From Streptomyces sp. ATexAB-D23 (GTDB lineage Bacteria > Actinomycetota > Actinomycetes > Streptomycetales > Streptomycetaceae): DNA of 64,000 bases. Of the stretch, positions 5,838 to 53,801 are shown piece after piece; within the stretch, counting starts at the first letter, position 1, and each line of letters opens with the position of its first letter. The translations under genes were made by a program, and so were the position numbers. The notes beneath the pieces are model-generated. The model had not been told where the DNA came from, searched no databases, and saw only the letters and a program-made list of their open reading frames with translations. The DNA lies in the NCBI RefSeq assembly GCF_000373645.1, contig NZ_KB892013.1:62001-126000 (forward strand), given 5' to 3'.

Positions 5838-6878
5838 ATGGACACCGACACCGGACACCGTGGCCCGCGCGTGACGTCCGTACTGCGGGGCCTTCGCGCA
5901 CCTGGAATCGCCCCCTGGGCCCATCTGTACGAGCCGCCGGCGCCGTCCCTGCCGGGTGCGCCGCGCGCCGTGTTCCTGGGTGTGTCGACGCTTCTGCTGG
6001 ACGACGGCGAAACCGCGATCCTCACGGACGGGTTCTTCAGCCGCCCCGGCCTCCTGCGGATGCGGTTCGGCCGGCTGCGCCCCGATCCCGCACGCGTCGC
6101 GGCAGGTCTGCGCAGGGGCGGGATCGACCGGCTCGACGCCGTGTTCGTGGTCCACTCGCACTACGACCACGCCCTGGACTCGCCCCAGGTGGCCGCCGCC
6201 ACGGGCGCCCGGCTCATCGGCTCCCCGTCCACCCGCAACATCGCCCGGGGCCAGGGCTTTCCCGACGACCGGTTCCAACTCGCGGCCACCGGCGAGCCGT
6301 TCGCGGTCGGCGCCTTCACGCTGACCGCCCTGCCCGCCCGGCACAGTCCGGGCGACCTGGCCCCCGGACGGATCGACCGGCCGCTACGGCCCCCGGCCCG
6401 GGCCACCGACTACAGGACCGGCGACTGCTACACCCTCCACGTGAGCCACGGCGCGCGTGAACTCCTGATCCACGCCAGCGCCCACACCCTCCCCGGCGCC
6501 CTCGACGGCCACCGCGCCGAGACCGTCTACCTGGGGATCGGCGCGCTCGGCCATCAGAGCGAGGCGTTCCGGGAGGAGTACTGGCACCGCCTGGTCACCG
6601 GGACGGGCGCCCGGCGCGTCGTCCCCATCCACTGGGACGACTTCTTCCGCCCGCTCGACCGGCCCCTTCGCCCGTTCCGCGCGTTCCTCGACGACTTCCC
6701 GGCCACCATGGACTTCCTGACCCGCGCGGCGGACCGTACGGGCGTCCGTCTGGCCCTGCCCACGCTGGGCGTGCGGACCGACCCCTGGCCGGCGGACGCC
6801 GCGCCGGACACCGTCAGCAGAGCAGGGCGGCACGCAGGTCGAGCCGGTGATCGAGACGGGACAGGTCGCGTCCGGTGA
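5838..6878 (+). CDS. Metallo-beta-lactamase-fold hydrolase
   Basis: A 346-residue MBL-fold protein. The metal-binding motif HSHYDH is near residue 105; further histidines follow in PARHSPGD, in ELLIHAS and in the late VVPIHWDDF segment, as in the family. No signal peptide is evident. The start is taken at ATG 5838, behind ACGAGGACG; an upstream in-frame GTG at 5784 has no ribosome site. The family covers lactonases, phosphodiesterases and others, and nothing here fixes the substrate. Its last 65 bp overlap the 3' end of the convergent PucR gene, an unusually deep tail-to-tail overlap. Confidence 0.85.
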   Translation: MDTDTGHRGPRVTSVLRGLRAPGIAPWAHLYEPPAPSLPGAPRAVFLGVSTLLLDDGETAILTDGFFSRPGLLRMRFGRLRPDPARVAAGLRRGGIDRLDAVFVVHSHYDHALDSPQVAAATGARLIGSPSTRNIARGQGFPDDRFQLAATGEPFAVGAFTLTALPARHSPGDLAPGRIDRPLRPPARATDYRTGDCYTLHVSHGARELLIHASAHTLPGALDGHRAETVYLGIGALGHQSEAFREEYWHRLVTGTGARRVVPIHWDDFFRPLDRPLRPFRAFLDDFPATMDFLTRAADRTGVRLALPTLGVRTDPWPADAAPDTVSRAGRHAGRAGDRDGTGRVR

Positions 6879-7923
6879 GGATCTCGATGCGCCGGACACG
6901 GTAGTGGACCGTGTTGACGTGCACGTGCAGGGCCTGGGCCGTCCTCGCCCAGGAGCAGTCGTGCGCGAGGAAGAGCTCCAGGGTCTCCAGGAGCACGCCG
7001 CCCGGTTTCGCCCCGGCCTTCAGCAGCGGACCGAGGACCGTCTCGCGGTAGACGCTCCGCACCTCGGCGGGGACCCCGGCCAGCAGCAGAGCCACTCCTC
7101 CGGATGCGCGCGGACCGGTGACCGCAGGGGGCGTCGCGGCAGCGGCGTGCGCTGCCGCGAGGGAGTAACGAGCCTGCTTCAGCGCGGCGTTCAGCTCGGC
7201 GGGCGTGGCGACCGCTGCGCTCAGACCGATCCGCCAGACGCTCTCCGGGCAGCAGCTCCGGATCAGCGGCCACACCTCGCGCAGCCGCTCCGCCACGGCG
7301 CCCGCCGCGCATTCCTGGTGCGCGAGGACCGCTGTCGCCTCGCCGTCGACACCCCGGGCGGCGGCGAAGACGACGGACGGCACATGGCCCAGGGCTTCGG
7401 TGAGCGCGGCGGTTCCGTCCTCTCCCCTGCCCCCGCGCGTCTCCGGCGCGGCGGTGACCACGGTGTACGCGGCCCGGCCGGCCAGTCCGCAGGACTCCAG
7501 CGCGGCGCCCAGCCGGCCGGGGTCGGCACGCGGTGCGCCAACGGCTTCCAGAAGGCGGGCGGCCACGGACGTACGGGCCGCCAGGTCACGGTCCACGCGG
7601 CGGCGGTACCGGCCGAGGAGTCCGGATATCTCCTCCAGATCCCCTGACGGCACCCGGCTCCCCTCGGGAAGGTGCAGGTACCAGGCATCGAAGACCGCGC
7701 CCCCGGACCCGACCCGCACGGTCGTGCCCCGCCCCTCGCGCAGGATCTCCACGGCCCGCCGGGCGGGCAGCGGATCCGCGCCCCCGGTGCGGGCGACGGT
7801 CCGGCCGCTGCCGGTGAGCAGATGGCAGTCGGGCGCCCCGAGGCGGGCGAAGGCGCGGTCGAGCAGTTCGCCCGCCGCCGCGCCGCTCTCCAACGCCCGG
7901 TCGAGGTCCTGGCGGACGTGCAT
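6814..7923 (-). CDS. PucR family transcriptional regulator
   Basis: A 369-residue regulator. The C-terminal PucR-type helix-turn-helix is clear (TAQALHVHVNTVHYRVRRIE, then ILTGRDLSRL), preceded by a GGDEF-like middle domain (LIRSCCPESVWRIGLSAAV, then ALKQARYSLAAA). The N-terminal part, about residues 1-130, is a putative sensory region. The frame stays open far upstream, but the ATG at 7923 has an excellent AAGGAG site and the sequence before it includes a tandem repeat, so this start was chosen. It is divergent from the lipoprotein and I36-inhibitor pair and may control them. The effector is unknown. Confidence 0.88.
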   Translation of the reverse strand: MHVRQDLDRALESGAAAGELLDRAFARLGAPDCHLLTGSGRTVARTGGADPLPARRAVEILREGRGTTVRVGSGGAVFDAWYLHLPEGSRVPSGDLEEISGLLGRYRRRVDRDLAARTSVAARLLEAVGAPRADPGRLGAALESCGLAGRAAYTVVTAAPETRGGRGEDGTAALTEALGHVPSVVFAAARGVDGEATAVLAHQECAAGAVAERLREVWPLIRSCCPESVWRIGLSAAVATPAELNAALKQARYSLAAAHAAAATPPAVTGPRASGGVALLLAGVPAEVRSVYRETVLGPLLKAGAKPGGVLLETLELFLAHDCSWARTAQALHVHVNTVHYRVRRIEILTGRDLSRLDHRLDLRAALLC

Positions 7924-8091
7924 ACGAGACTCCTTGCGCGCACACGGGACGGAACCCGCCCTCGCATTCACGAGGCGAATACGAGTCATCGCATCGTAGA
8001 TGCACAGCCGACGACGTAAAACAGCTCTTGGCTGATCCACCAGAGGCCCGGGGCGGACGTCTTGGTAGGGGTGCACGGGGACGCCGTCGGA

Positions 8092-8135
8092 GTACGGGCC
8101 TGCCGCAACGTTTGTACGGGCCTGCCGCAACGTTT
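8092..8135. repeat. Perfect 22-bp tandem duplication in a promoter region
   Basis: Two identical, directly adjacent 22-bp units (8092-8113 and 8114-8135), each beginning GTACGGGCC and ending CAACGTTT, lie between the PucR gene and the divergent lipoprotein gene. They could be two operator copies or a recent duplication. Confidence 0.8.
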
Positions 8136-8215
8136 CCCCGGGTGAAATCCGCACCCACACGGGTGAGTTCCCGCCCCGGCCCCTGTTGCGGTGAGGCCCG
8201 CGGCCACTAGACACC

Positions 8216-20909: not shown

Positions 20910-22352
20910 TCAGCCCGGACTGATGGCCATCGTCACGGCCTTCGGCTCGGTGAAGAACTCCCGGCTGAAGGTGCCGCCTTCACGTCCGATGCCCGAGTCG
21001 CCGAATCCGCCGAAGGGGGCGCGCAGGTCCCGGACGAAGAAGCAGTTGGTCCACACCGTGCCCGCGCGCAGTGCCGCGGAGACGCGGTGGGCGCGGGACA
21101 GGTTCTCTGTGAAGACCATGGCGTTGAGGCCGAACCGGGTGCCGTTGGCGGCCGCCACCGCTTCCTCCTCCGTGTCGAACGGTGTGACCACCACGACCGG
21201 GCCGAAGATCTCCTCCTGGGCGACACGCGCCGAGGCGGGTGCCCCGGTGACGACGGTCGGCCGTACTGTCCAGCCGTCACCGAGACCGCCGAGGGCCACG
21301 GTCCCGCCGTCCGCCTCCACCGTGTCGATGTACGAACGCACCTTGTCGTAGTGGGTCCTCGACGCCAGCGGACCGAGCTGGGTCAACGGGGACTTGGGGT
21401 CGCCGATCACCAGTTCCTCGGCGGCGGCGCAGAACCTCCGGAGGAACTCGTCGTACACCTCGCGCTGGACGAACAGCCGGCTGCCCGCCAGGCACACCTG
21501 CCCGGCGTTGCTGAAGATGGCCTTCACCGACCAGTCGACGGCCAGGTCGAGGTCGGCGTCGGCGAACACCAGGTTGGCGCCCTTGCCGCCCAGTTCGAGG
21601 CTGACCGGGGTGAGGTTCCCGGCTGCGGCGCGGCCGATGATCCGTCCCGTGCCGGACTCCCCGGTGAAGGTGATGCGGTCCACCCGGGGGTCCTGGGTCA
21701 GTGCCTCCCCGGCCGAGTCGGGCCCGTAACCGTGGACGACGTTGAGCACGCCGGGAGGCATTCCGGCCTCCAGGGCGAGGCGCGCCAGGATGGTCGCGGA
21801 AGCAGGGGTGTCCTCGGCCGGCTTCAGGACGACCGTGTTGCCCCAGGCCAGGGCGGGCGCGATCTTCCAAGTCTCCAGCATGAGTGGGAAGTTCCACGGC
21901 GCGATGGCGGTGACGACGCCGGCCGGTTCGAAGCGGGTGTAGGTGTGGTGGCCGCTGTCCATCGGCAGGGCCTCGCCGGCCGACATCCGGGCGTGGTCGG
22001 CGAAGAAGCGGAAGTTCATCGCGGACCGCGGGACGTCCTTGGCCGTGCTGTCCGCGATGGGCTTGCCCATGTCGGTGGTGTCGGCCATGGCGAGCTCGTC
22101 GCGGTGCACGTCGATCAGGTCCGCGAGCCGGTGCAGGACCGCGCCCCGTTCGGCGAAGCCCATCCGTGGCCACGGGCCCTTGTCGAAGGCGTCGCGTGCG
22201 GCGCCGACGGCCTCACCGGCTTCCTCCGCTCCGCCGAGGGCCACCTCGGACCACGGCTGCCGGGTCCACGGGTCGACCGTGTCGAACCGCGCCCCATCGC
22301 GGGACTCCTGCTCCTTGCCGCCAATGATGTGCGGAATGAAGTCCTTCATCAT
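20910..22352 (-). CDS. Aldehyde dehydrogenase, 2-hydroxymuconic-semialdehyde type
   Basis: A 480-residue NAD(P)-dependent aldehyde dehydrogenase. The general base Glu lies in SLELGGKGANLVF and the catalytic Cys in NAGQVCLAGSR; PWNFPLMLETWKIAPALAWG and GFGDSGIGREGG are also family signatures. The opening (GGKEQESRDGARFDTVDPWT) resembles 2-hydroxymuconate or 5-carboxymethyl-2-hydroxymuconate semialdehyde dehydrogenases (PraB/XylG/HpaE group). In this operon it would oxidise the ring-cleavage semialdehyde to 4-oxalocrotonate or an amino analogue. It is the last gene of the operon; its ATG overlaps the stop of the tautomerase gene (ATGA). Confidence 0.88.
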   Translation of the reverse strand: MMKDFIPHIIGGKEQESRDGARFDTVDPWTRQPWSEVALGGAEEAGEAVGAARDAFDKGPWPRMGFAERGAVLHRLADLIDVHRDELAMADTTDMGKPIADSTAKDVPRSAMNFRFFADHARMSAGEALPMDSGHHTYTRFEPAGVVTAIAPWNFPLMLETWKIAPALAWGNTVVLKPAEDTPASATILARLALEAGMPPGVLNVVHGYGPDSAGEALTQDPRVDRITFTGESGTGRIIGRAAAGNLTPVSLELGGKGANLVFADADLDLAVDWSVKAIFSNAGQVCLAGSRLFVQREVYDEFLRRFCAAAEELVIGDPKSPLTQLGPLASRTHYDKVRSYIDTVEADGGTVALGGLGDGWTVRPTVVTGAPASARVAQEEIFGPVVVVTPFDTEEEAVAAANGTRFGLNAMVFTENLSRAHRVSAALRAGTVWTNCFFVRDLRAPFGGFGDSGIGREGGTFSREFFTEPKAVTMAISPG

Positions 22353-22543
22353 TGCCCTCTTCTCTCTTCGATGGTCACGTCTCCCGCCGCCCAGTGCGTG
22401 GGCGGCACTTCGCGGACGATGACCCGGATGCTGTCTCTCGGCGCGCCGACGGAGGTCTCCACCGCGTCTGTCACCGAGGTAATGAGGGCGCGCAGTTGTT
22501 GCGGCGACCTGCCCTCCACGAGCGTCACCTCGATCAGGGGCAT
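22349..22543 (-). CDS. 4-oxalocrotonate tautomerase family protein
   Basis: A 64-residue protein, the standard size for this family. It begins Met-Pro-Leu-Ile-Glu-Val, which leaves the catalytic N-terminal Pro1 after Met removal. The middle RALITSVTDAVETSVGAP is the usual helix and the C-terminal half forms the second strand. It should interconvert enol and keto forms of 2-hydroxymuconate/4-oxalocrotonate between the semialdehyde dehydrogenase and the decarboxylase. It overlaps the isochorismatase-like gene upstream by 10 bp and the dehydrogenase downstream by 4 bp, so expression is tightly coupled. Confidence 0.88.
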   Translation of the reverse strand: MPLIEVTLVEGRSPQQLRALITSVTDAVETSVGAPRDSIRVIVREVPPTHWAAGDVTIEERRGQ

Positions 22544-23190
22544 CGCTGTCCGGACTCCACCGCGGCGGGGGCGAACGCCCCGGCAGCCGCCTCCAGGGGA
22601 ACGACCTCGGCGAAGACCGTGCCCATCAGTCTCAGGCTGTTGTGGTGCAGTTCCTCGAAGTAGCCGGCGACGGCCTCCTCGGGCACGATCGCGTGCAGGT
22701 CGCGGAAGAAGGCGTCCCGGACGGTCGACTCGATGCAGAAGTCGGTGCGCACGCCGGCCACGACCACGGTGCCGACGCCGAGCCGCTCCAGTACGTCGGC
22801 CAGCGCGGTGCGGTGGAAGGCGCTGAAGCGGGCCTTGACCACGACGGTGTCGTCGGGCAGCTGGTCCAGGCCGGGCACGACGGCGGCGCCCCACGTCCCT
22901 TCGCGCAGGCCCTCGGTGCGCAGGAAGGGGCTGCGCTGCGCGAGCAGCCCCACCGCCGCGTCGTCCGCCCACTGCATCCGCACCCAGATCACCGGCTGTC
23001 CGGCCGCGCGGGCCGCGGCGATCAGTGTGTTGATGTGCGCGGTGAGGGTGTCGAGTGCGTCGACGCGCAGGCCGGCCCGGGCGAAGACGCCCGAGGGGTC
23101 GCAGAAGTCGTTCTGCATGTCCACCACGACCAGGGCCGTCCTCGTGGTGCCGTCCCGGCTGTCCGGGACCGTGGTGCGTTCTGTATTCAT
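22534..23190 (-). CDS. Isochorismatase-family cysteine hydrolase
   Basis: A 218-residue hydrolase. The catalytic triad is visible: Asp in LVVVDMQNDF (near residue 25), Lys in VVVKARFSAF and Cys in VRTDFCIESTVRDAFF. Such enzymes cut C-N bonds in amides (nicotinamidase, N-carbamoylsarcosine amidase, maleamate and ureidoacrylate amidases) or the enol ether of isochorismate. Its place between a tautomerase and the regulator of a ring-cleavage operon suggests removal of an amino, amide or carbamoyl group from a substrate or intermediate. The exact substrate is not readable. The ATG has a strong GAGGAGAG site. Confidence 0.85.
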   Translation of the reverse strand: MNTERTTVPDSRDGTTRTALVVVDMQNDFCDPSGVFARAGLRVDALDTLTAHINTLIAAARAAGQPVIWVRMQWADDAAVGLLAQRSPFLRTEGLREGTWGAAVVPGLDQLPDDTVVVKARFSAFHRTALADVLERLGVGTVVVAGVRTDFCIESTVRDAFFRDLHAIVPEEAVAGYFEELHHNSLRLMGTVFAEVVPLEAAAGAFAPAAVESGQRCP

Positions 23191-23200
23191 TCCACTCTCC

Positions 23201-23905
23201 TCACGGGTCGGCCGTCAGCGCCGCGTGGGCCGCCAGCACCTCGTCGAGAACGGCCTGGTCTCCCCCACCGATGGCGTCCACCAGGCGTTGGTGCACCTCC
23301 GCTCCCTCCAGGGTCGATGTGGACTCGGCCGCGGGGGTCACCCGGCGCAGCCGGCTCTCGACGAAGTCCAGGAGAGATACGTAGGTGTGCCGCAGGATCT
23401 CGTTCGGGGTGATGGCCGCGATGCGTTTGTGCAGCGACCAGTTGATGGCCAGGTAGGCCGCCATGTCCGAGCCGGCCTCCGTCATCTGCCGCACCAGGGC
23501 GTTCAGTTCTTCGAGGTCCGCGGGGTTCCGGTGCCGCATGGCCTCAAGGGTGACCAGCGGTTCGAGGGCATGTCGCATGGCGAGGGCGTCGGAGACGGGT
23601 ACCGAGTCCCCGCTCAGTTCGAGCATCTTGCGGCCGAGGCGGACCAGGGCCGGCGGCGAGGAGACGAAGATGCCGCCCTTGGCACCGGGACGGACGGAGA
23701 TGGTGCCCCGTGAGCTGAGCAGCCGCACCGCTTCGGTGAGGGTGGCCGCCGCCACGTTGAACTCCTGCCGCAGGGTGTCCTTCGTACCGAGGCGGTGGCC
23801 ACTGGGCAGGCTCTGTGCCGAAATCCGCTCCTCGATGGCCTTGGCCACCGTTTCGGCCCGGGACGAGGCCCGGAGGAGCTGGATGACGTCGCCATCTGCG
23901 TTCAT
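23201..23905 (-). CDS. GntR/FadR-type transcriptional regulator of the aromatic operon
   Basis: A 234-residue GntR protein of the FadR group. The winged helix spans about residues 15-80 (AETVAKAIEERI, then LRQEFNVAAATLTEAVRLL and SVRPGAKGGIFV). The helical FCD domain follows, with AMRHALEPLVTLEAM and WSLHKRIAAIT. Its ATG overlaps the stop of the amidohydrolase gene, so it is embedded in the operon it probably controls, with a pathway acid as ligand. A longer open frame upstream belongs to the other gene in a different frame. A candidate operator is the palindrome at 31293-31308. Confidence 0.88.
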   Translation of the reverse strand: MNADGDVIQLLRASSRAETVAKAIEERISAQSLPSGHRLGTKDTLRQEFNVAAATLTEAVRLLSSRGTISVRPGAKGGIFVSSPPALVRLGRKMLELSGDSVPVSDALAMRHALEPLVTLEAMRHRNPADLEELNALVRQMTEAGSDMAAYLAINWSLHKRIAAITPNEILRHTYVSLLDFVESRLRRVTPAAESTSTLEGAEVHQRLVDAIGGGDQAVLDEVLAAHAALTADP

Positions 23906-25074
23906 GGTCCATGCCCTTCGACTGCGGTGGATTCGATCTCGAGCGTAGCGAGACCGGCCCCGATGTCCGAGCGCCGCCTCCGCGCTCGGAGGTCGGGAAC
24001 CGGTGAGCCTGCCCCGCTCACCGTAGCCCCGGCGACCCCGGGGGAGAGGCCGCGCAGCAGTGCCGCGGCGTTGCCGCCGAGGACCGCGTTCTCCTGCGAC
24101 ACCTCCAGGCCCAGCGCACGAACCGTCGCCACGGGCTGCTGGTCCCTCAGGTCGAACGGCGCGTCCGTGCCGAGGAGAACGTGCTGCGCGGTCATGTCCT
24201 CCACCAGCCTCGCCAGCGTCTTGGTGTCGAACACCGCCGTGTCGTAGAACAGGCGCCGCAGGTACTCCGTCGGCACCCGCTCGATGACCCGGGCCACCGG
24301 TTTGCGGTGCCAGCCGAGGTCGAGGCGGGGTGCGACGCCCGGCACGCAGCCGCCGCCGTGCGTCAGGCAGAGCACCAGGTCGTGCCGGCCCAGGACGCCG
24401 CCGAAGATCAGCCGCGATACGGCCAGTGCGGTCTCCATCGGGTATCCCAGGAGCTGCACCAGGTGGTAGTCGGCCAGCCGGTCGCGCGAGGACACCCGGC
24501 TCGGGTGCAGGAGGGTGAAGCACCTGCGCTCGGCGAGCGCCGACCACAGGTCCTCGTTGACCGGGTCGTCCAGCTCCCGGCCCGCCCCGTAGCTGCCCAC
24601 GGTCGCACCCGCGAAGCCTAGTTCGTCCATGCACCGGGCCAGCTCCTCGGCCGCGTCGGGCAGTCCGACGGGGACCGTTGCCAGGCCCACCAGGCGGCCG
24701 GACGACGCCGCGACGAACTCCGCGAGGGCGTCGTTCGCCCGGCGGGTGACGTCCATGACGAGCGAGGCGTCCGGTGACTCGGAGGCGAAGACGAACGGCG
24801 GTGCCGCGACCGCCTGGTGGGTCACACCCATGCTCTCCAGTGACGCCAGGCGCAGTTCCAGGTCGTACTGCTCGGGCGGGAACGGGATGGCCGCGCCGGG
24901 GGCCAGGCCGCACAGGTCGGGGTCGAGCCGAAGTACGTGATCGGCCATGCCCGACAGGTCCGCGAGGTCGCGGCGTTCCAGCTGTCGCAGCAAAGGCATC
25001 GGCAGGGCGTGCGTGTGGATGTCGATGACGGGCCGGTCTCTCGCGGCCCGAGCACTCATCAGCTGTTCACTCAT
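23902..25074 (-). CDS. Amidohydrolase-family decarboxylase (ACMSD/PraH type)
   Basis: A 390-residue amidohydrolase_2 protein. Metal ligands are seen in VIDIHTHALP (HxH), in LCLTHGGGCVPG and in LLGTDAPFD (Asp). This is the pattern of zinc decarboxylases such as 2-amino-3-carboxymuconate-6-semialdehyde decarboxylase and 5-carboxy-2-hydroxymuconate-6-semialdehyde decarboxylase (PraH). Next to a LigAB dioxygenase it most likely removes CO2 from a carboxylated ring-cleavage semialdehyde, giving the substrate of the aldehyde dehydrogenase. The start overlaps the LigA-like gene by 8 bp. The last 40 or so residues are Arg-rich and not typical of the family. Confidence 0.85.
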   Translation of the reverse strand: MSEQLMSARAARDRPVIDIHTHALPMPLLRQLERRDLADLSGMADHVLRLDPDLCGLAPGAAIPFPPEQYDLELRLASLESMGVTHQAVAAPPFVFASESPDASLVMDVTRRANDALAEFVAASSGRLVGLATVPVGLPDAAEELARCMDELGFAGATVGSYGAGRELDDPVNEDLWSALAERRCFTLLHPSRVSSRDRLADYHLVQLLGYPMETALAVSRLIFGGVLGRHDLVLCLTHGGGCVPGVAPRLDLGWHRKPVARVIERVPTEYLRRLFYDTAVFDTKTLARLVEDMTAQHVLLGTDAPFDLRDQQPVATVRALGLEVSQENAVLGGNAAALLRGLSPGVAGATVSGAGSPVPDLRARRRRSDIGAGLATLEIESTAVEGHGP

Positions 25075-25396
25075 CGCGCTCCGCCATGTACGTCTCGAAC
25101 TCGTCGCCGAGCAGTGAGCGGATGAGTGCGGTGGCGGCGTCGGAGGTCCCGGCCTTCTCACCGTTGCCGTGCACGAGGCGGGCGAGCTGGGAGAGCAGAT
25201 AAGGGTGCAGGCCCAGCTCGTGCAGCGCGCGGTAGTCGCGGGTGCTGATGGCCGTGCGCTCCTCGTCGGTCAGCGGGTAGTCGGCCAGCACTCGCTGCTC
25301 GTCGGACTCGAACCGCTTGCGCAGCTCGGTGTCCCATTTCAGGTCCTGCACCAGGTCGTTGGTCCGCAGCAGCGGATTGAATCGGTCGAGCGCCAT
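25067..25396 (-). CDS. LigA-type small subunit of an extradiol dioxygenase
   Basis: A 109-residue, mostly helical protein with the LigA pattern: an N-terminal region reaching WDTELRKRFESDEQRVLADY, then LTDEERTAISTRDYRALHELG and HPYLLSQLARL. In LigAB enzymes this small subunit covers the active site of the large subunit and helps position the catechol ring. It is separated by 78 bp from the LigB-like gene upstream and overlaps the decarboxylase gene downstream. An AAGGACC site precedes the ATG. Presence of a separate LigA points to the protocatechuate, gallate or aminohydroxybenzoate dioxygenase branch. Confidence 0.88.
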   Translation of the reverse strand: MALDRFNPLLRTNDLVQDLKWDTELRKRFESDEQRVLADYPLTDEERTAISTRDYRALHELGLHPYLLSQLARLVHGNGEKAGTSDAATALIRSLLGDEFETYMAERDE

Positions 25397-25474
25397 GTCA
25401 CTGGTCCTTCCGTCATCCGGTCGTCGGGGAGGGAGCCGATCGTCGTGGTGGTGGCCGGTCGGCCACCGCGAGGG

Positions 25475-26320
25475 TCACAGGTGCCACCGCACCGCGCCGA
25501 CGCCGCAACGCCACTGGTCGACCGCGGCGTATCCCAGCGACATGCACGGCCGTGGTCCGACGGCTCCCATGACGACCGTCCAGGACAGGAGTTCGGCGGT
25601 GCCTCCGGAGCCGGCTTCCTCCATGCGCTCGAAGGTGGCCTGCGACAGAACCTGCTCGTGGTCGCCGGCCTCCAGAAGGTCGAGGTACCAGCGGTCGAAC
25701 TTCTCATCGATCTCCAGGTAGCGCGGCCCGCCCGGTTCGTGGCTGAGTCCGCCGGACCCCAGCAGGCCGACCCGCAGTCCGTCGGGCAGTTGGGTCCTGA
25801 TGGCGTCGCCGAGCGTCTGGCCAAAGCTGTAGCAGGCGCGTTCGTCCGGGACCGGGGGGACGGTGCAGTTCTGCAGCACCGGCACGATCGCCACCCCGGC
25901 GGACTCCAGGCGCGCCATGTGGACCGGGACCGAAAGGTTGTCGTCGAAGCGGAGGTTGTGCTCGACACCCCTGACGTTCAGTCCGGTGTCGCGTACGGCC
26001 TCGTGGAGAATCGCGGCGCTCTCGGGTGAGCCCGGCAGGTCGTAGTCGGCCATGCGCAGCCACGGCTTGAACCAGTCGTCGGGGCCGGTGTGCCGGGGGG
26101 CCTGGCCGAAGGTGAAGTCGGCGTAGTCGTTGAGCCGGGCGTTGGCCACGTGGTCGTTGCCGATGACGAGGAGTACGTCCGTGCGCGACTCGACCACGGC
26201 GTCGTGGATCGCGTCGTAAGCCTTGCGGACCGTCGCCCGGTCCGCCTCGGGGGCCTTGTCGAACCAGCCGGCCAGGCCAGGAGCGTGACTGGCGGCCATC
26301 GCCAAAGATATCTCTGCCAT
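25475..26320 (-). CDS. LigB-type catalytic subunit of a class III extradiol dioxygenase
   Basis: A 281-residue protein of the LigB superfamily. The iron ligands are expected at His in AASHAPG (near residue 12), His in VIGNDHVA and Glu in GTAELLSW. The catalytic acid/base His is in LLGSGGLSHEPGGPR. It should open a catechol-type ring next to the hydroxyls using Fe(II) and O2. Of two adjacent ATGs, the second (26320) has the better distance to the GGAGG site. With the downstream decarboxylase and dehydrogenase, a carboxylated substrate such as protocatechuate or an amino-hydroxybenzoate fits best; the ring position cut cannot be read. Confidence 0.87.
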   Translation of the reverse strand: MAEISLAMAASHAPGLAGWFDKAPEADRATVRKAYDAIHDAVVESRTDVLLVIGNDHVANARLNDYADFTFGQAPRHTGPDDWFKPWLRMADYDLPGSPESAAILHEAVRDTGLNVRGVEHNLRFDDNLSVPVHMARLESAGVAIVPVLQNCTVPPVPDERACYSFGQTLGDAIRTQLPDGLRVGLLGSGGLSHEPGGPRYLEIDEKFDRWYLDLLEAGDHEQVLSQATFERMEEAGSGGTAELLSWTVVMGAVGPRPCMSLGYAAVDQWRCGVGAVRWHL

Positions 26321-26377
26321 CATTCCTCCGGATTCAGATACCGCCGTAGTTGGCTACGCCGGTTTCCTTGGGCTGCT

Positions 26378-27247
26378 TCAGCCTCGGTCGGCCTTGCCGG
26401 CGGCGGAGCCGTCGCTTGACGTGGTGGTGTGGTACGTCTTCGCCCGCTGCACCTGCTCGTGGACGTGGGCCCGCAGTTCCCCGAAGCGGGGCGCGGAGCG
26501 GGTGGTTATCTGGTCCCGCTCGGCGGGCAGGTCGACGGTGATGTCCTCCATGACCACCGTGGGTGACGCGGACAGCACCAGGACGCGCTGCCCCAGGTAC
26601 ACCGCTTCGTCGATGTCGTGGGTGACGAACAGCAGCGTCATCCCCAGTCGCTGCCACAACGACCGTGTGAGGTCCTCCAGTTCGGCCCGGGTCTGCGCGT
26701 CCACGGCGGCGAACGGCTCGTCCATGAGCAGCACGGCCGGCTCGTAGGCGACGGCCCGGGCGATGGCGACGCGCTGCTGCATGCCACCCGACAGCTGCCA
26801 GGGGTGGGCGTCGGCCACATCGGTCAGGCCGACCGCCTCCAGCGCCTGGGCCACCAGTTCGGCACGGCGCCCCTTGGACAGCTTCTTCTGCCTCAGCGGC
26901 AGGTCGATGTTGCCCTGGACCGTCATCCACGGAAACAGGCTGCGGCCGTACTCCTGGAAGACCACGGCCATGCCCGGCGGCGGCTCCACCACCCGCTCGT
27001 CACCGAGCCGCACCTCGCCGGAGGTGGGGGCAAGCAGGCCGGCGACACACTTCAGGAGTGTGGTCTTGCCCGCCCCGGAGGGGCCGACTATGCAGACCAG
27101 CTCTCCCTCGCCGAGACTGAAGGTGAGGTCGCGTACCGCCTCGACGCTCCGGCCGGCACCCCGGTAGATCTTCTGCACCCCCCGCACGTCGAGACGGGCA
27201 TGGCCCGCACCCGTGGACAGGGCGGAGTCAATATGCGTCATGGTCAT
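26378..27247 (-). CDS. ABC transporter ATPase, NitT/TauT (SsuB/TauB) type
   Basis: A 289-residue ATPase with Walker A GPSGAGKTT, signature LSGGMQQR, Walker B VLLMDEPFAAVD and the His switch in FVTHDIDEA. These match importers for nitrate, taurine, sulfonates and aromatic acids. Two near-tandem starts exist (27247 and 27241); 27247 follows a good GGGGAGAG site. It overlaps the upstream permease stop by four bases. Placed inside the ring-cleavage operon, it should power uptake of the aromatic substrate. Confidence 0.9.
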   Translation of the reverse strand: MTMTHIDSALSTGAGHARLDVRGVQKIYRGAGRSVEAVRDLTFSLGEGELVCIVGPSGAGKTTLLKCVAGLLAPTSGEVRLGDERVVEPPPGMAVVFQEYGRSLFPWMTVQGNIDLPLRQKKLSKGRRAELVAQALEAVGLTDVADAHPWQLSGGMQQRVAIARAVAYEPAVLLMDEPFAAVDAQTRAELEDLTRSLWQRLGMTLLFVTHDIDEAVYLGQRVLVLSASPTVVMEDITVDLPAERDQITTRSAPRFGELRAHVHEQVQRAKTYHTTTSSDGSAAGKADRG

Positions 27248-28032
27248 TTCTCTCCCCTTTGGGAACGCCGCAGGCCGTGGTACCAACCGAGAACTCGGGA
27301 GTCGAAGCGGTCGAAGAGCAGTGAGAGGGCGAACCCGAGCAGGCCGAGCAGGATGATCCCGCTCCACATGGCGGGGACCGCGAAGCTGCGCTGGAACTGG
27401 ACGATGGTGAAGCCGAGTCCGTTCGAGCTGGCGAACATCTCGCTGATCACCATCAGGATGATCGAGATGGACAGGGCCTGCCGCATGCCCGCGACGATCT
27501 GCGGACTCGCCGCGGGCAGGACCAGGTGCCGCAGCCGGGCGAAGCCGGTGATGCCGTAGCACCGCGCGCTGTCCGACAGCACATTGTCGACGGCCCGTAC
27601 GCCTTCCACCGTGTTGAGCAGGACCGGCCAGACGGCGCCCGAGATGATGACGAGAATCTTCATTCCGTCGCCGACACCGCTGAAGAGCATCAGGATCGGG
27701 ATCAGCACCGTGGGCGGGATGGCCCGGAAGAACTCGAGGATCGGCTCGGTCAGGGCCCGCAGCCGGGGCAGGGAGCCCAGGAGCGTGCCGAGGGCCACGC
27801 CCACGCAGACGGCGCCCGCGTAACCGGCGGCAAGGCGGGCCAGGCTCGGCAGCACATCACCGGTGACGCGTTCCCACCCCCAGGTGTCGCCGAACGCGGA
27901 CAGGATCGTGCCGAGCGAGGGGTAGTAGAAGCTGGTGGTCCGGCCGCCGAGCACCGCCCATGAAGCCACCAGCACCGCCGGCAGTGCGAGCAGGTAGGCC
28001 GCCTTGCGGGTCCATACGCCGAGGACGCTCAC
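27244..28032 (-). CDS. ABC transporter permease 2, NitT/TauT type
   Basis: A 262-residue permease with about six membrane segments. The first is KAAYLLALPAVLVASWAVL; the ATPase-contact loop reads DSARCYGITGFARLRHLVLPAASP. The GTG start at 28032 follows GGAGGG and overlaps the stop of the first permease gene (GTGA). It forms a hetero-pair with the next permease, whereas many NitT/TauT systems use one permease as a homodimer. Confidence 0.88.
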   Translation of the reverse strand: MSVLGVWTRKAAYLLALPAVLVASWAVLGGRTTSFYYPSLGTILSAFGDTWGWERVTGDVLPSLARLAAGYAGAVCVGVALGTLLGSLPRLRALTEPILEFFRAIPPTVLIPILMLFSGVGDGMKILVIISGAVWPVLLNTVEGVRAVDNVLSDSARCYGITGFARLRHLVLPAASPQIVAGMRQALSISIILMVISEMFASSNGLGFTIVQFQRSFAVPAMWSGIILLGLLGFALSLLFDRFDSRVLGWYHGLRRSQRGEK

Positions 28033-28952
28033 GCCGTGCCCTCCTTCCGTACCGAGGTGTGCCAGGACAGCAAGGTCCGCTCCAGTACCCGGAAGACGAT
28101 GTTGACGCAGAGTCCGAGCAGCCCGGTCACCGCGACCAGCGCATAGGTCTCCGGTACGGCGTCGGCGGCCTGCGCCGACGCGATCAGGCTGCCGAGCCCG
28201 GAACCGCCGATGATCAGCTCGGCGCTGACAGCCAGGATCAGGGCCACCGAGGCCGCAAGGCGCAATCCGGTCATGAAGTACGGCAGCGTGGTGGGCCACA
28301 GCAGGTAGCGCAGGCGCGCCAGTGGCGACAGCCGGTAGGAGGCCGCGGTGTCACGGGCCACCGGGTCGATGTCCCGTACCCCGCTGAGCACTTGGAGGAG
28401 CACGGGCCAGAACGAGGCATACACGACAAGGAGCAGGGTGGAGCGCAGACCGGTGCCGTAGACAAGCACCGCCAGCGGGACGAGTGCCACCGAAGGGATC
28501 GGCCGCAGGAACTCGATGGTCGAGGCCGTGGCCTTGCGCAGCACCTCCACGCTGCCGAGCAGCAGCCCGAGGGCCGTCCCCGCCACGACGGCGATGGCCA
28601 GTCCGATCCCCCAGCCCTGCAAGGTGTCCGTCAGCGCCGTCCAGAAGGCGGAGCCCCCGGCTTCGCCCGCCAGGGCACGGGCCATGTCGCTGACCGGCGG
28701 CAGGTGGCGGTCGCTCACCAGGCCGAGCCGGGGCAGCGCCTCCACCACACCGGCGAAGATCAGCACTCCGGCCGCCCCGAGCACCGGGTCGGGTACGGAC
28801 CGGCGCCGCGGCCGGCCGTCGGGGGCCGGTGCCGGACGGACGTCGGAGGTCCGGCTCTTCGTCACGGACGCCGGACCGTCCGCGGTCCGTTCGTCCGCAG
28901 CAGATGCGGACGGTGTCGCCGGTCCGTCATCGCTGTGCGGCTGTAGTTTCAT
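28029..28952 (-). CDS. ABC transporter permease 1, NitT/TauT type
   Basis: A 307-residue permease related to, but clearly different from, its neighbour. A disordered cytoplasmic start of about 50 residues rich in Ala, Pro and Asp precedes the first membrane segment (VLGAAGVLIFAGVVEALPRL). The contact loop is ARDTAASYRLSPLARLRYLL. Two distinct permeases point to a heteromeric channel. It is 67 bp downstream of the binding-protein gene. Confidence 0.88.
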   Translation of the reverse strand: MKLQPHSDDGPATPSASAADERTADGPASVTKSRTSDVRPAPAPDGRPRRRSVPDPVLGAAGVLIFAGVVEALPRLGLVSDRHLPPVSDMARALAGEAGGSAFWTALTDTLQGWGIGLAIAVVAGTALGLLLGSVEVLRKATASTIEFLRPIPSVALVPLAVLVYGTGLRSTLLLVVYASFWPVLLQVLSGVRDIDPVARDTAASYRLSPLARLRYLLWPTTLPYFMTGLRLAASVALILAVSAELIIGGSGLGSLIASAQAADAVPETYALVAVTGLLGLCVNIVFRVLERTLLSWHTSVRKEGTA

Positions 28953-29019
28953 GTCGTCTCCCTCCTTGCAGACATCAAGTGACCCAGGTGCACGCTGAGT
29001 TCACGGAGCCGCGCGTTCC

Positions 29020-30006
29020 TCACTTCGCAAGGAGGCTGTCCAGCGCGTCGGTGTTCTTGATGAGCCCCGCGTCGACGGTGTATTGCGCCAGCGGCTTCAT
29101 CTCCGCCGCGTCCGTCGCCGGGTCCCATCCGGGCAGCGTCACCTTTTCGCTGACACCCGGCTTCAGCTTCAGGTAGGTCTTCAGGACGGCCCTCGCCTCG
29201 TCGGGGTGGTCCTCCGCGTAGGTCAGCGACTCCTGGAGCGCGGCCTTGAAACGGGACACGACCTCGGGATTGGCGGCCGCGTACTGCTCGGAGGTGAACC
29301 AGCCGGCGAACGGGGACAGCTTTCCGAGGCTGGCGTAGCTGACCGGCAGTGCGCGAGCGCCGTCGGCCTTGGCCGTCGTGGTGAACGGCTCCCCGATCAG
29401 TGCTGCGGACACCTGCCCCTTCTCGATCGCCGTCTGCATGTTGGGAATCGGCACCTCGACCAGCTCGATGTCGCCGGCCTTGACGCCGTACTTCTCCAGG
29501 CCGGTGCGGACGGCGACTTCGCTGAGTCCCTTGAGCGTGTTGACCGCGACCTTCTTGCCCTTCAGGTCGCCGGCCTTCTTCACCTCTGGGTCACTGGTCA
29601 GCAACTGACCCGAGCCGTCTTCCGATACGTCGTCGGAGGCGCGGGCACCGACGGAGACCATCTTCACCGGCAGCTTCTCCGCACGGGCCACCAGCAGACT
29701 GACGATGTTCGAGTAGCCGAACTGGTAGCTGCCGCTCACCACCGCCGGAACGATGACGGCGCCACCCTGTGCGTCCTGCATGGTGATCTTCAGGTCTCGC
29801 TTGGAGAAGAAACCCTTCTCGATGCCGAGCCGCACGGGTGCTACATCTATGACGGGCATCGTGCCGAGTTTGATCTCGGTGATACCGGACTCGGAAGAGG
29901 CTGCTGCTCCCCCCTGACTGCCACCGCACGCGGTGACCGCTGTCAGCCCCAGGACGACGCACGACGAGGCGATCATGAGCCGGTGTTTTCTCGCGATGAA
30001 GGACAT
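29020..30006 (-). CDS. NMT1/SsuA-type substrate-binding lipoprotein
   Basis: A 328-residue lipoprotein with signal MSFIARKHRLMIASSCVVLG and a lipobox ending TAC. The binding fold contains LGTMPVIDVAPVRLGIEKGF, AGDLKGKKVAVNTLKG and GEPFTT, as in nitrate, sulfonate and aromatic-acid binding proteins. The ATG at 30006 has GGAG at ideal distance; the ATG at 30018 is too close to its site. It should capture the pathway's substrate outside the membrane. Confidence 0.9.
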   Translation of the reverse strand: MSFIARKHRLMIASSCVVLGLTAVTACGGSQGGAAASSESGITEIKLGTMPVIDVAPVRLGIEKGFFSKRDLKITMQDAQGGAVIVPAVVSGSYQFGYSNIVSLLVARAEKLPVKMVSVGARASDDVSEDGSGQLLTSDPEVKKAGDLKGKKVAVNTLKGLSEVAVRTGLEKYGVKAGDIELVEVPIPNMQTAIEKGQVSAALIGEPFTTTAKADGARALPVSYASLGKLSPFAGWFTSEQYAAANPEVVSRFKAALQESLTYAEDHPDEARAVLKTYLKLKPGVSEKVTLPGWDPATDAAEMKPLAQYTVDAGLIKNTDALDSLLAK

Positions 30007-30215
30007 ACGACGCTCCATGCTCCAGAGATTCGGGAAAGATCAATCCGCCACGGCCGGGGCCGATGACAGCTGGGGGCGGCCGGAAGGCCGGGCGCGCGTC
30101 ACGTGCGGGGTGACGCGGAGGAACTCGGTTCGCGGTGCGCGTCCGCGAAAGCGGGAAGCCGTAGCGGCCGGGGAAGCCCGGTGCGCCCCGCGGCGGGCGT
30201 GGTCCGCGCCTTGAA

Positions 30216-31004
30216 CTACGGGTGGCCGGAGGTCACCGTCAGGCTGCCGAGGTGGGCGAACTCCACCGAGACCGTGCGTCCCGGCTCCACGAACACCGCG
30301 TCCGTGAGCCCACCGGTCAGCACGGTCCAGCCCGCTTCGACCGCGATCCCCCGCCGGGCCAGGCTGTTGGCGGCGAGCGCCAGCGCCTGGGCGGGATGCC
30401 CCTGCACGGCCGCCCCGGTGGCCGAGTGGATCAGCTCACCGTCCACGGAGATCGTGCACGCCTCGCCGACCAGGTCGAGCCCGTCGGGCGCGAAGCCTTC
30501 GGCGCTCACCGCGAACCGTGACGACGAGGCGTTGTCCGCCACGACGTCGGGCAGGGCGAAGCTGAAGTCTCGGTAGCGGCTGTCGATGATCTCGAACCCG
30601 GCGTGCACGCTCTCCACGGCGGCCAGCGCCTGCTCCCAGGTCACTCCGGGGCCCTCGAGGCGCCGGCCCATGACGAACACGATCTCGGGTTCGACGCGTG
30701 GGTGGATCATCTCGGCCACGGGCACCGCCTCCCCCGTCGCGAGCGTCATGGCGTCCGTGAGCCATCCGGTCAGCGGCGAATCGATGCCCATGCGCTGCTG
30801 CTTGGCCTGCGAGGTGAGCCCGAGCTTCACGCCGACGATGTTCTCCCCGGCCCGGCGCTTGCGGTCGATCAGCGCGTCCTGGACCCGGTAGGCGGTGGCC
30901 AGATCGAGCTCGGGCCACTGGTCGGTGATCCTCCCGCCGTCCTGCCGTTCCCGCTCGCGCCGGAGGAGTTCCTCGACGGCCCGGTCGATGGTCCAGTCAG
31001 TCAT
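30216..31004 (-). CDS. 4-oxalocrotonate decarboxylase-like enzyme (XylI/DmpH/PraD group)
   Basis: A 262-residue protein of the hydratase/decarboxylase family. It reads more like the decarboxylase than the hydratase branch: GVKLGLTSQAKQQRMGIDSP, IHPRVEPEIVFV, IIDSRYRDFSFALPDVVADN and the following ASSSRF match the XylI/NahK pattern. Metal-binding acidic residues lie in RVEPEI. It would decarboxylate 4-oxalocrotonate to 2-oxopent-4-enoate after the tautomerase. It is the first gene of the long operon, 209 bp upstream of the binding protein. No hydratase or aldolase for the next steps is in the window. Confidence 0.82.
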   Translation of the reverse strand: MTDWTIDRAVEELLRRERERQDGGRITDQWPELDLATAYRVQDALIDRKRRAGENIVGVKLGLTSQAKQQRMGIDSPLTGWLTDAMTLATGEAVPVAEMIHPRVEPEIVFVMGRRLEGPGVTWEQALAAVESVHAGFEIIDSRYRDFSFALPDVVADNASSSRFAVSAEGFAPDGLDLVGEACTISVDGELIHSATGAAVQGHPAQALALAANSLARRGIAVEAGWTVLTGGLTDAVFVEPGRTVSVEFAHLGSLTVTSGHP

Positions 31005-31633
31005 TGGTGTTCTTCTCCCTCGAGCGGGTTTGTGGTCTACGCGCGGCGGCGTCCGGGTGAGTCGGGTTCCTCGTCTGCGTGAGGCGTACGGCACCGGGAA
31101 ATTCAGGCGGGAAATCGGTACGCGGAGTCGCTACGAAGGTCAGTACGCGGGGTCATTGAGCCGGGCCGGAGGCCGGGCCGGGTTGTCCGGCCGTCTCATC
31201 GCGTCCACGTGATTCGAACATCGACAACCGGGTCATCTCGGTCGAAGTGACCGTGTTCCGATGGCTTGAAGTATGCACATCAGAACCACCGGATTCAATA
31301 GGTTGAATATAGTCGGTTGGTGGTCTTCACTCGAGAGATGCGTACTTCCCGCGTGATCCGCTCGCACCGTCCCCGCGTGCCGCAGGCCCCCTTCACCGGC
31401 CCGGCCCGACGCGACCCCGCTCCTCACACACCGCACCTGAGCAAGGCATTCACCGGAATCGACCGCAGGTCGAGGGCAACGACGGCAGCGGCGCCGATCA
31501 CATACGAAGGGGCTTGACCGTGACGCCCCGCGTTACTGACACTCCTCGCAGCGAACAGACGCCGCACCCACATGATCAAGCCACAGGGCACGGACTGCCG
31601 GGCGGTCGCCCGGCCCGAGAGCGGAGTACTCCC
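31005..31633. other. Divergent control region of the aromatic operon and the creatininase-type gene
   Basis: These 629 bp hold no supported gene and include a markedly AT-richer stretch around 31250-31330. The palindrome at 31293-31308 is the clearest candidate operator. The promoter of the long minus-strand operon should lie here. Confidence 0.6.
31293..31308. promoter_or_regulatory. Candidate operator ATTCAA-TAGG-TTGAAT
   Basis: A perfect 6-bp inverted repeat around a 4-bp spacer sits in the AT-rich middle of the divergent control region. It could bind the GntR protein encoded inside the operon. Its sequence does not follow the common FadR-type GT-N-AC core, so assignment is tentative. Confidence 0.45.
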
Positions 31634-32548
31634 ATGCACGGTGCCGACAGTTCGCACACGGACGGAACTCACGAGGACAGGCCGCGCGAGGACAGGCCTC
31701 ACGAGGATGTCGGCAGCGACGTCTTCCGCGACACCATCGCGGAGATGACCTGGCAGGAGGTGGAACGGGCCGCGAACGACGGCGCGGTCCTGCTGTGGGC
31801 CTTCGGCGTGATCGAACAGCACGGTCCGCATCTGCCGGCCGGCACCGACGTATACCTCCCGTCGGCCCAACTTCGCGGTGTGCGCCGGGAACTGGCCCGA
31901 CGCGGGGTACCGGCCCTCATCATGCCCCCGTACTACTGGGGAGTTAACGTCGTCTCCGGGTCCTTTCCCTCCTCCTACAATGTGCGCCCCGAGGTGATGA
32001 AGGCACTGATGGCCGACGTGCTGACCGGGATCGGCAAGGACGGCTTCCGCCACGTCTTCTGTTTCAGCGGCCACGGCGACGCGCTGAACAACCGGACCGT
32101 CCACGAGGGCATCAGGCTGGGCAGCCAACTGACCGGCCTGGACATCAGCTTCGTCATCGACCGCGGGCTCGCCGAGCGGCTTGGACTCGATCCCGACGAT
32201 CCCCATGTGTCCCCCACCGGCGCGGCACTGTCGAAGTCGGACACGTCGGCGACGCCCGCCCACATCGACGTGCACGCCGGCGACTGGGAGACGTCGCAGA
32301 TGCTGGCCGCCCAGCCCTCCCTCGTCAGGAACGACGTGCGGGCCGGACTCAAGAGCACCGAGTACGGCCCCGAGGATCTCGCCGTCTGGCGGAAGGGGTA
32401 CGGACATGCCCGCGTAAAGACCCCACTCGGCTACTTCGGCGACCCCGCGGCGGCCGATGCCGCCAACGGACGGCGCCTGCTGGAGCAGCAGGTGACGAAC
32501 GCGGCGGACGCCATCCAGGAACGACTGCGCCTGATGGGACGGGCGTAG
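31634..32548 (+). CDS. Creatininase-family amidohydrolase
   Basis: A 304-residue protein. The family's metal-site patterns are seen in LWAFGVIEQHGPHLPAGTDV (Glu, His, Asp), CFSGHGDALNN, and HIDVHAGDWETSQML (His and Glu). Creatininase relatives open cyclic or linear amides (creatinine, formamidopyrimidines, MftE peptide). The ATG at 31634 was chosen for its GGAG site and because the in-frame sequence before it (from GTG 31520) has much lower third-position GC. It is divergent from the ring-cleavage operon and shares its control region, so it may act on an amide or lactam form of the substrate. Confidence 0.85.
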   Translation: MHGADSSHTDGTHEDRPREDRPHEDVGSDVFRDTIAEMTWQEVERAANDGAVLLWAFGVIEQHGPHLPAGTDVYLPSAQLRGVRRELARRGVPALIMPPYYWGVNVVSGSFPSSYNVRPEVMKALMADVLTGIGKDGFRHVFCFSGHGDALNNRTVHEGIRLGSQLTGLDISFVIDRGLAERLGLDPDDPHVSPTGAALSKSDTSATPAHIDVHAGDWETSQMLAAQPSLVRNDVRAGLKSTEYGPEDLAVWRKGYGHARVKTPLGYFGDPAAADAANGRRLLEQQVTNAADAIQERLRLMGRA

Positions 32549-53642: not shown

Positions 53643-53801
53643 CGAACGCCCGGGTCCCGCACCTCTTCTGACATCCCGTCGCTCATCCCCCGTTGTCGCG
53701 GGGGCGGCGGGCTCACGGACCGGACCCGCCCCCTCATGGGGCACCGCCTCGTCCGGGCATCGCGCCGTCTTCTTCCGGATCATCCCGAAAGGCCACCGGC
53801 C

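Follow-up and report, generated by a model that had tools for sequence, protein, structure and literature searches.

A LigAB-amidase operon of Streptomyces that may degrade a carboxylated o-aminophenol through a carboxamide

Introduction

Which aromatic compound calls for a meta-cleavage operon that combines a LigAB dioxygenase with hydrolases of carbon-nitrogen bonds? We asked this of a twelve-gene minus-strand operon, with a divergent creatininase-family gene, from Streptomyces sp. ATexAB-D23 (RefSeq assembly GCF_000373645.1, contig NZ_KB892013.1, positions 62,001 to 126,000; this stretch of 64,000 nucleotides is referred to as the window). A first-pass annotation had proposed a meta-cleavage route that sheds a carboxyl group, a carboxylated catechol or aminophenol as substrate, and release of nitrogen by the isochorismatase- and creatininase-type enzymes. 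Our results support the route, the substrate class and, for the isochorismatase-type enzyme with its intact Asp-Lys-Cys triad, a role in nitrogen release. Judged by its sequence, the operon appears to be a previously undescribed form of the modified meta-cleavage pathway, marked by an unusual change of a catalytic residue. We tentatively propose, with confidence somewhat short of even, that it serves the uptake and degradation of a carboxylated o-aminophenol via a carboxamide made by LigAB. The most likely substrate would be 3-amino-4-hydroxybenzoate (3,4-AHBA) or some derivative that the creatininase frees.

Results

Layout and gene families of the operon

The operon runs from a XylI-type decarboxylase gene (30216-31004) through a dehydrogenase gene (20910-22349). 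By open reading frame (ORF) coordinates, six of its 11 junctions overlap by 1-10 bases (PermA/PermB, PermB/ATPase, LigA/ACMSD, ACMSD/GntR, isochorismatase/tautomerase, and tautomerase/dehydrogenase), one is a 10-base gap, and four are gaps of about 55-210 bases. Gene content, conservation, the LigB and amidase residues, the operator-like site, and the downstream genes described below were read from the sequence. The features are as follows.

31634..32548, plus strand: creatininase-family amidohydrolase (PF02633, E=6e-47), divergent in the window genome
31286..31310, no strand: operator-like site ATTCAATAGGTTGAAT at 31293, AT-rich and conserved, between the XylI-type and creatininase genes
30216..31004, minus strand: XylI-type 4-oxalocrotonate decarboxylase (best NCBIfam match TIGR03218, 244 bits, under the cut-off; closest PDB structure NahK)
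29020..30006, minus strand: ABC substrate-binding protein, NMT1/SsuA type (PF09084, E=2e-26)
28029..28952, minus strand: ABC permease A, PermA (ORF and synteny)
27244..28032, minus strand: ABC permease B, PermB (ORF and synteny)
26378..27247, minus strand: ABC ATPase (PF00005)
25475..26320, minus strand: LigB catalytic subunit (PF02900, E=9e-27; in the residue map the catalytic His is Asp127, with metal ligands and base kept)
25067..25396, minus strand: LigA small subunit (PF07746, E=6e-12)
23902..25074, minus strand: ACMSD/PraH-like decarboxylase of the Amidohydro_2 family (PF04909, E=6e-26; closest PDB structure ACMSD)
23201..23905, minus strand: putative GntR-family regulator (named in the first-pass annotation; helix-turn-helix region recognized by eye; orthologue position conserved)
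22534..23190, minus strand: isochorismatase-type cysteine amidase (PF00857, E=5e-45; Asp24, Lys119, Cys152; model closest to RutB, NicF, and BiuH)
22349..22543, minus strand: 4-oxalocrotonate tautomerase (PF01361, E=5e-19)
20910..22349, minus strand: aldehyde dehydrogenase of the 2-hydroxy/2-aminomuconic semialdehyde dehydrogenase type (Aldedh, E=1e-162; TIGR03216, 522 bits, under the cut-off)

The genes first assigned to the minus-strand operon lie where they had been placed, and Pfam backs the family of each enzyme tested; the creatininase, which had been counted among them, is correct as to family but lies on the plus strand. None of LigA, LigB, the decarboxylase, and the dehydrogenase scored above an NCBIfam equivalog cut-off for enzymes of protocatechuate or 2-hydroxymuconate pathways, so the labels 'PCA' and 'PraH-type' apply at family level only. 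Similarity of LigA and LigB to protocatechuate 4,5-dioxygenase subunits was distant, with at most 26 bits and 100 bits, respectively, in the equivalog test, far under the cut-offs. The tautomerase was the only operon enzyme above an NCBIfam cut-off (PRK02220), and the closest PDB structure to the dehydrogenase was 2-aminomuconate semialdehyde dehydrogenase.

A LigB clade with aspartate in place of the catalytic histidine

In LigAB chemistry, the carbon bearing the hydroxyl contacted by the second-sphere His becomes the new carboxyl. In DesB this residue, His124, contacts OH(4) and is essential (PMC3962378). The operon LigB retains the 2-His-1-Glu metal site of class III dioxygenases and the base, His194 (His195 in LigAB), and belongs to a clade that held 37 of the 51 rows in our LigB tree (support 100/98). 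A residue map of 38 clade sequences (these 37 and one from a second strain of the window species) placed Asp at the position of LigAB His127, DesB His124, and MhpB His115 in every one, within a conserved DDN motif; metal ligands and base were kept wherever covered, one partial sequence lacking the last two columns. LigBs of protocatechuate, gallate, and nitrogen-free pathways, as well as MhpB, carry His there.

The clade also differs in its neighbors. Twenty-four of the 37 rows, from two phyla, adjoin a cysteine amidase and 11 a formamidase of an unrelated family; one of the remaining two is cut by a contig end and the other has neither hydrolase. Outside the clade, neither enzyme was adjacent in any of the 14 rows. 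Both partners come from amide-hydrolase families. If an amino group rather than a hydroxyl faced the Asp127 carboxylate, the product would be a carboxamide; this would account for the presence of amidases from two unrelated families beside this LigB clade.

The formamidase-bearing clusters, which we call clade B, have the arrangement IclR-HyuA-HyuB-LigB-LigA-formamidase (FmdA)-alpha/beta hydrolase (collected loci L036, L055-L062, L068, and L069) and occur in Gordonia, Nocardia, Skermania, Amycolatopsis, Streptomyces, Janibacter, and on Corynebacterium glutamicum plasmid p48A, where no alpha/beta hydrolase is annotated. We found no account of them in the literature searched for hydantoinase, extradiol dioxygenase, and formamidase together. 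The record of L068, titled Rhodococcus sp. JCM 9791, was assigned to Cyanobacteriota by the tree tool and is probably a mislabelled or contaminated assembly. A separate LigB branch (L038, L039, and L073) has Glu at the catalytic His position in an FDENF motif, and in L039 it adjoins Rieske dioxygenase, DHDPS-family, and amidohydrolase genes. On a Sinorhizobium americanum plasmid (L071), an Asn-type LigB-family protein lies beside an alpha/beta hydrolase, an importer, an FAA hydrolase, and RidA; a relationship of this locus to the mimosine pyd genes is possible.

An amidase with an intact catalytic triad

Enzymes of the RutB/NicF/BiuH type use a cysteine nucleophile to hydrolyse amides and ureides. 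Asp24, Lys119, and Cys152 were common to 16 homologues of the operon amidase from two phyla, and the window enzyme agrees with the BiuH family at each of the nine active-site positions described for it (D24, Q26, F29, K119, F125, T128, G146, C152, and T156; PMC5806882). Its predicted structure (mean predicted local distance difference test score, 89.6) was closest to RutB; NicF, triuret hydrolase, and BiuH were among the next matches. These data support the prediction that the isochorismatase-type enzyme is a true amidase with an intact Asp-Lys-Cys triad.

A classical back end with interchangeable front ends

A dehydrogenase, a tautomerase, and a XylI-type enzyme form the known set that converts 2-hydroxymuconic semialdehyde to 2-hydroxypenta-2,4-dienoate. 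L035, L040, and L045 carry genes for hydratase, acetaldehyde dehydrogenase, and aldolase next to the operon; the window genome has such genes at another place on the operon's contig. Nocardia abscessus (L052) lacks the dehydrogenase-tautomerase-XylI set and has an alpha/beta hydrolase next to the same kind of hydratase-aldolase set. The two arrangements are the classical branches from 2-hydroxymuconic semialdehyde, and finding both makes a C6 chain derived from a benzene ring the likely intermediate. The back end is thus likely a meta pathway through 2-hydroxymuconic semialdehyde.

The decarboxylase subfamily occurs with three front ends: LigAB with the cysteine amidase; a 3-HAO-like cupin with RidA, joined in Actinomadura by a PobA-like hydroxylase; and a His-type LigB (32-38% identity) in clusters where no enzyme for nitrogen removal was detected, which ties nitrogen removal to the first two. 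On the decarboxylase tree, the front-end groups required three changes versus 15 in shuffles, and the third group formed one clade (99/97). The Actinomadura clusters with cupin and RidA (L091, L104, L105, and L107-L110), which also hold the PobA-like hydroxylase, ACMSD-like decarboxylase, tautomerase, and dehydrogenase, are candidates for an aminobenzoate or 4-amino-3-hydroxybenzoate pathway.

Actinomadura sp. KC06 has both of the nitrogen-removing front ends. Its LigAB unit (L041) follows a transporter of the second type and consists of genes for a binding protein, creatininase, LigB, LigA, and the amidase; ACMSD, dehydrogenase, tautomerase, and XylI are all missing from it. A type-2 cluster on another contig (L091) has the decarboxylase, tautomerase, dehydrogenase, and XylI as well as RidA. 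The corresponding cluster of relatives runs on into the same transporter, without LigAB. By synteny, the two contigs probably adjoin, and the LigAB front end probably feeds the shared decarboxylase. Because the amidase is kept although RidA is present, it would seem to do something that RidA cannot.

This arrangement bears on a first alternative, in which the operon is a 4-amino-3-hydroxybenzoate pathway of the Bordetella sp. 10d type: cleavage on the hydroxyl side would produce 2-amino-5-carboxymuconic 6-semialdehyde, an enamine, and RidA would be replaced by the isochorismatase-type enzyme acting as deaminase. The back end is indeed the same as in the clusters with PobA-like hydroxylase, 3-HAO-like dioxygenase, and RidA, and the published deaminase works before decarboxylation. 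The full cysteine-amidase triad nevertheless fits amides rather than enamines, KC06 keeps the amidase with RidA in the same genome, and clade B substitutes another amide hydrolase, of the formamidase family. We therefore consider this pathway unlikely.

The third front end weighs on another possibility, an ordinary catechol acid pathway (2,3-cleavage of protocatechuate or 3,4-cleavage of 2,3-dihydroxybenzoate) in which creatininase and isochorismatase free the acid from amides before cleavage. A back end of the same kind serves the pra, dhb, and opa pathways (PMC6362003), and the creatininase sits beside the importer. However, Asp127 occupies the place of the expected essential His, the amidase accompanies LigAB in nearly all lineages, Pseudomonadota included, and the His-type LigBs that lack a nitrogen enzyme but share the decarboxylase subfamily (L037, L100, and L112-L117) are better candidates, which leaves this pathway quite unlikely.

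Opening of an N-heterocycle is improbable. LigAB would cleave a hydroxypyridine-type ring as does PydA, a LigB-family 3,4-dihydroxypyridine dioxygenase (PMC7356986), and the amidase would act like maleamate amidase or RutB; the closest amidase structures, RutB and NicF, do serve heterocycle catabolism. Nonetheless, no ring hydroxylase of the hydroxypyridine kind was found nearby, and a ring with five carbons cannot give the C6 chain needed by the dehydrogenase-tautomerase-XylI or hydratase-aldolase set, a carbon count on which pyridine ring cleavage was rejected for the full operon. A duplicate 3-hydroxyanthranilate pathway, suggested by the ACMSD-like decarboxylase and aminomuconate-type dehydrogenase, is very improbable and was rejected, as HaaO is absent from the operon and present in a complete canonical cluster elsewhere in the window genome.

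That cluster (L095; contig C13, 246-266 kb) contains HaaO above the equivalog cut-off, RidA, and ACMSD. Its hydratase-aldolase-acetaldehyde dehydrogenase genes are 70-90% identical to those adjoining the Wenjunlia operon.

Distribution and a shared operator-like site

The search for the same gene order in other actinomycetes suggested by the first-pass annotation recovered the unit (importer, creatininase, LigB, LigA, decarboxylase, GntR, isochorismatase-type amidase, tautomerase, dehydrogenase, and XylI) in more than 15 actinobacterial genomes. Genes in the collected loci were called with scoring that penalises antisense ORFs. In most cases the genes run XylI, binding protein, two permeases, ATPase, creatininase, LigB, LigA, decarboxylase, GntR, amidase, tautomerase, dehydrogenase. 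The operon proteins are mostly 55-85% identical across Streptomyces, Wenjunlia, Actinomadura, Nocardia, and Pseudonocardia, and since the arrangement recurs in all five it is not a product of chance. LigB orthologues (70-81% identity) are rare but spread over these genera; the decarboxylase subfamily was present in 6/393 Streptomyces, 16/65 Actinomadura-group, and 10/62 Pseudonocardia-group genomes.

The creatininase gene lies between those of the ATPase and LigB in L035, L040, L045, L046, L047, L050, L067, and L101-L103 and adjoins LigB in L041 and L044; its divergent position was found only in the window species. An unrelated neighbor can be ruled out, because the gene is inside the operon in most relatives and hence part of the unit. 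A Bosea plasmid (Alphaproteobacteria) has genes for LigA, LigB, and the amidase together with an ACMSD-family gene, an FCD-type regulator, and a creatininase; its ABC importer is of a different class. Three proteobacterial metagenome-assembled genomes (MAGs) retain LigA-LigB-amidase. The operon thus occurs in several families of actinobacteria and, in reduced form, in Pseudomonadota. We found no account of it in the literature searched, including searches for isochorismatase with extradiol dioxygenase; 'undescribed for Streptomyces', as first suggested, is too narrow.

Many carrier genomes also have a common operator-like site. Allowing at most one mismatch, the core CCTATTGAAT matched 13 times in 679 kb of collected loci, each time upstream of an operon-type first gene (13/13) and not in other cluster types among these loci. 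About 1-2 matches would be expected by chance in 679 kb, and a first-order Markov simulation gave 0-1 per 200 kb. The search was anchored on the AT-rich repeat of the window; an exact half-site palindrome search was noisy. The site may be bound by the GntR protein.

3,4-AHBA as a possible substrate

The decarboxylase would need 5-carboxy-2-hydroxymuconate semialdehyde after amide hydrolysis, which points to 3,4-AHBA cleaved between C2 and C3. This compound is a precursor of several actinomycete natural products, and we predicted it as the substrate before testing for its synthase. The 3,4-AHBA synthase family PF01959 was present in 57 of 296 Streptomyces (19%) versus all four sampled Streptomyces carriers (hypergeometric P=0.0013; P=0.007 counting three species). 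S. smaragdinus has the family as well, with a gene above the cut-off for BagC/FevH 3,4-AHBA synthases; in the window genome there is an aldolase-synthase pair whose synthase matches BagC/FevH best, under the cut-off. The operon may well be a new recycling route for a building block of Streptomyces natural products. In the same genome, an AMP ligase, the 3,4-AHBA aldolase and synthase homologues (6236-8159), and a flavin monooxygenase stand in a row (L127, 4563-9400), a possible small biosynthetic cluster.

Discussion

In the pathway that we propose, substrate, regiochemistry, amide intermediate, creatininase role, and all activities are inferred. The importer would take up a carboxylated o-aminophenol, and the creatininase may free 3,4-AHBA from a derivative. 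We guess, from position and family, that the creatininase, a metallo-beta-lactamase-fold protein (L049 and L051), or HyuAB (clade B) releases the aminophenol from a cyclic or N-acyl form. LigAB would then open the ring with the amino group, not the hydroxyl, toward Asp127, so that 2,3-cleavage of 3,4-AHBA would give 5-carboxy-2-hydroxymuconamide 6-semialdehyde, the usual carboxyl carbon becoming a carboxamide. The cysteine amidase would hydrolyse this muconamide to ammonia and 5-carboxy-2-hydroxymuconate 6-semialdehyde, which the ACMSD-type enzyme would convert to 2-hydroxymuconic semialdehyde. Dehydrogenase, tautomerase, and XylI-type decarboxylase would carry this on to 2-hydroxypenta-2,4-dienoate, and the hydratase-aldolase-acetaldehyde dehydrogenase set elsewhere on the contig would yield pyruvate and acetyl-CoA.

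The broader proposal, that the Asp-type LigAB clade cleaves o-aminophenols at the nitrogen-bearing carbon to a carboxamide, is paired in two phyla with amidases of two unrelated families, and lets Streptomyces recycle 3,4-AHBA, strikes us as rather doubtful as a whole. Several observations count against it or against parts of the pathway. The aminophenol dioxygenases known so far open the ring at the hydroxyl side, yielding enamines and not amides. Glu or Asn occupies the Asp127 position in other LigB branches whose loci are free of this cysteine amidase (L038, L039, L073, and L071), Asp127 could serve another substrate, and one clade LigB, from a MAG (L063), has no amidase nearby. The creatininase is absent from some loci and replaced by the metallo-beta-lactamase-fold protein in L049 and L051, and the ACMSD-like gene on the Bosea plasmid is just 29% identical. 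When compared, the KC06 contig ends (L041/L091) had no overlap; their joining rests on synteny. Two of the four Streptomyces carriers are strains of a single species, which makes the four not independent, and PF01959 was found in 0/10 Actinomadura, Nocardia, and Pseudonocardia carriers searched; the substrate there may differ or be scavenged, limiting support from the synthase to Streptomyces.

If the proposal is correct, it would add a mode of aromatic ring cleavage in which an amide is formed, bypassing the unstable enamine whose cyclisation yields picolinates, and 3-amino-4-hydroxybenzoate would have a breakdown route. Picolinic acid from 2-aminophenol is a known side reaction of aminophenol breakdown (PMC3790839). 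Even with another substrate, the clade-wide change of His to Asp and the near-strict amidase pairing would provide a testable rule for predicting nitrogen-bearing LigB substrates.

Elsewhere in the window, an elongation factor G-like protein (53736-55892, 718 amino acids) is followed by a glyceraldehyde-3-phosphate dehydrogenase-like protein with a long N-terminal extension (55935-57380, 481 amino acids).

Comparison with known systems

Among the closest known systems is the protocatechuate 2,3-cleavage (pra) pathway of Paenibacillus sp. JJ-1b, which has the same kind of back end: a decarboxylating meta route via 2-hydroxymuconic semialdehyde followed by dehydrogenase, tautomerase, and XylI-type decarboxylase. 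The operon has the corresponding families of carboxy-hydroxymuconate semialdehyde decarboxylase, 2-hydroxymuconic semialdehyde dehydrogenase, tautomerase, and oxalocrotonate decarboxylase, as the first-pass annotation had recognized. Its likeness to protocatechuate 2,3-cleavage as such is weakened by Asp127 and by the separate His-bearing LigB in the nitrogen-free pathway. The operon further differs from pra in its cysteine amidase, creatininase, importer, and GntR regulator; a second-sphere His is assumed for PraA.

The 4-amino-3-hydroxybenzoate pathway of Bordetella sp. 10d, which had also been called similar, resembles our proposal in losing nitrogen after cleavage and then a carboxyl group to give 2-hydroxymuconic semialdehyde. 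Its deaminase, however, belongs to the RidA/YjgF family (PMC6449761), whereas the operon has a cysteine amidase and RidA had no match in it or in orthologous loci, except L054. The actinobacterial counterpart of the Bordetella route may instead be the separate clusters with cupin and RidA (L091, L094, L104, L105, and L107-L111).

Like LigAB, DesB, and MhpB, the operon dioxygenase is of class III, with LigA and LigB subunits, a 2-His-1-Glu metal site, and a base His, but it is only distantly similar and its clade has Asp in place of their essential His127/124/115. The amidase shares its fold and nine active-site residues with RutB, NicF, and BiuH; it differs in its identity of about 31%, in reaching no equivalog cut-off, and in its expected substrate, a muconamide semialdehyde. 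AmnAB-type dioxygenases consist of alpha and beta subunits and have no LigA-type subunit. The 2-aminophenol (amn) pathway in which they act is like our proposal in its extradiol opening of an aminophenol and its similar lower pathway, but unlike the operon it relies on a dioxygenase with Tyr129 in the second sphere (PMC5291488) and on a RidA-type 2-aminomuconate deaminase.

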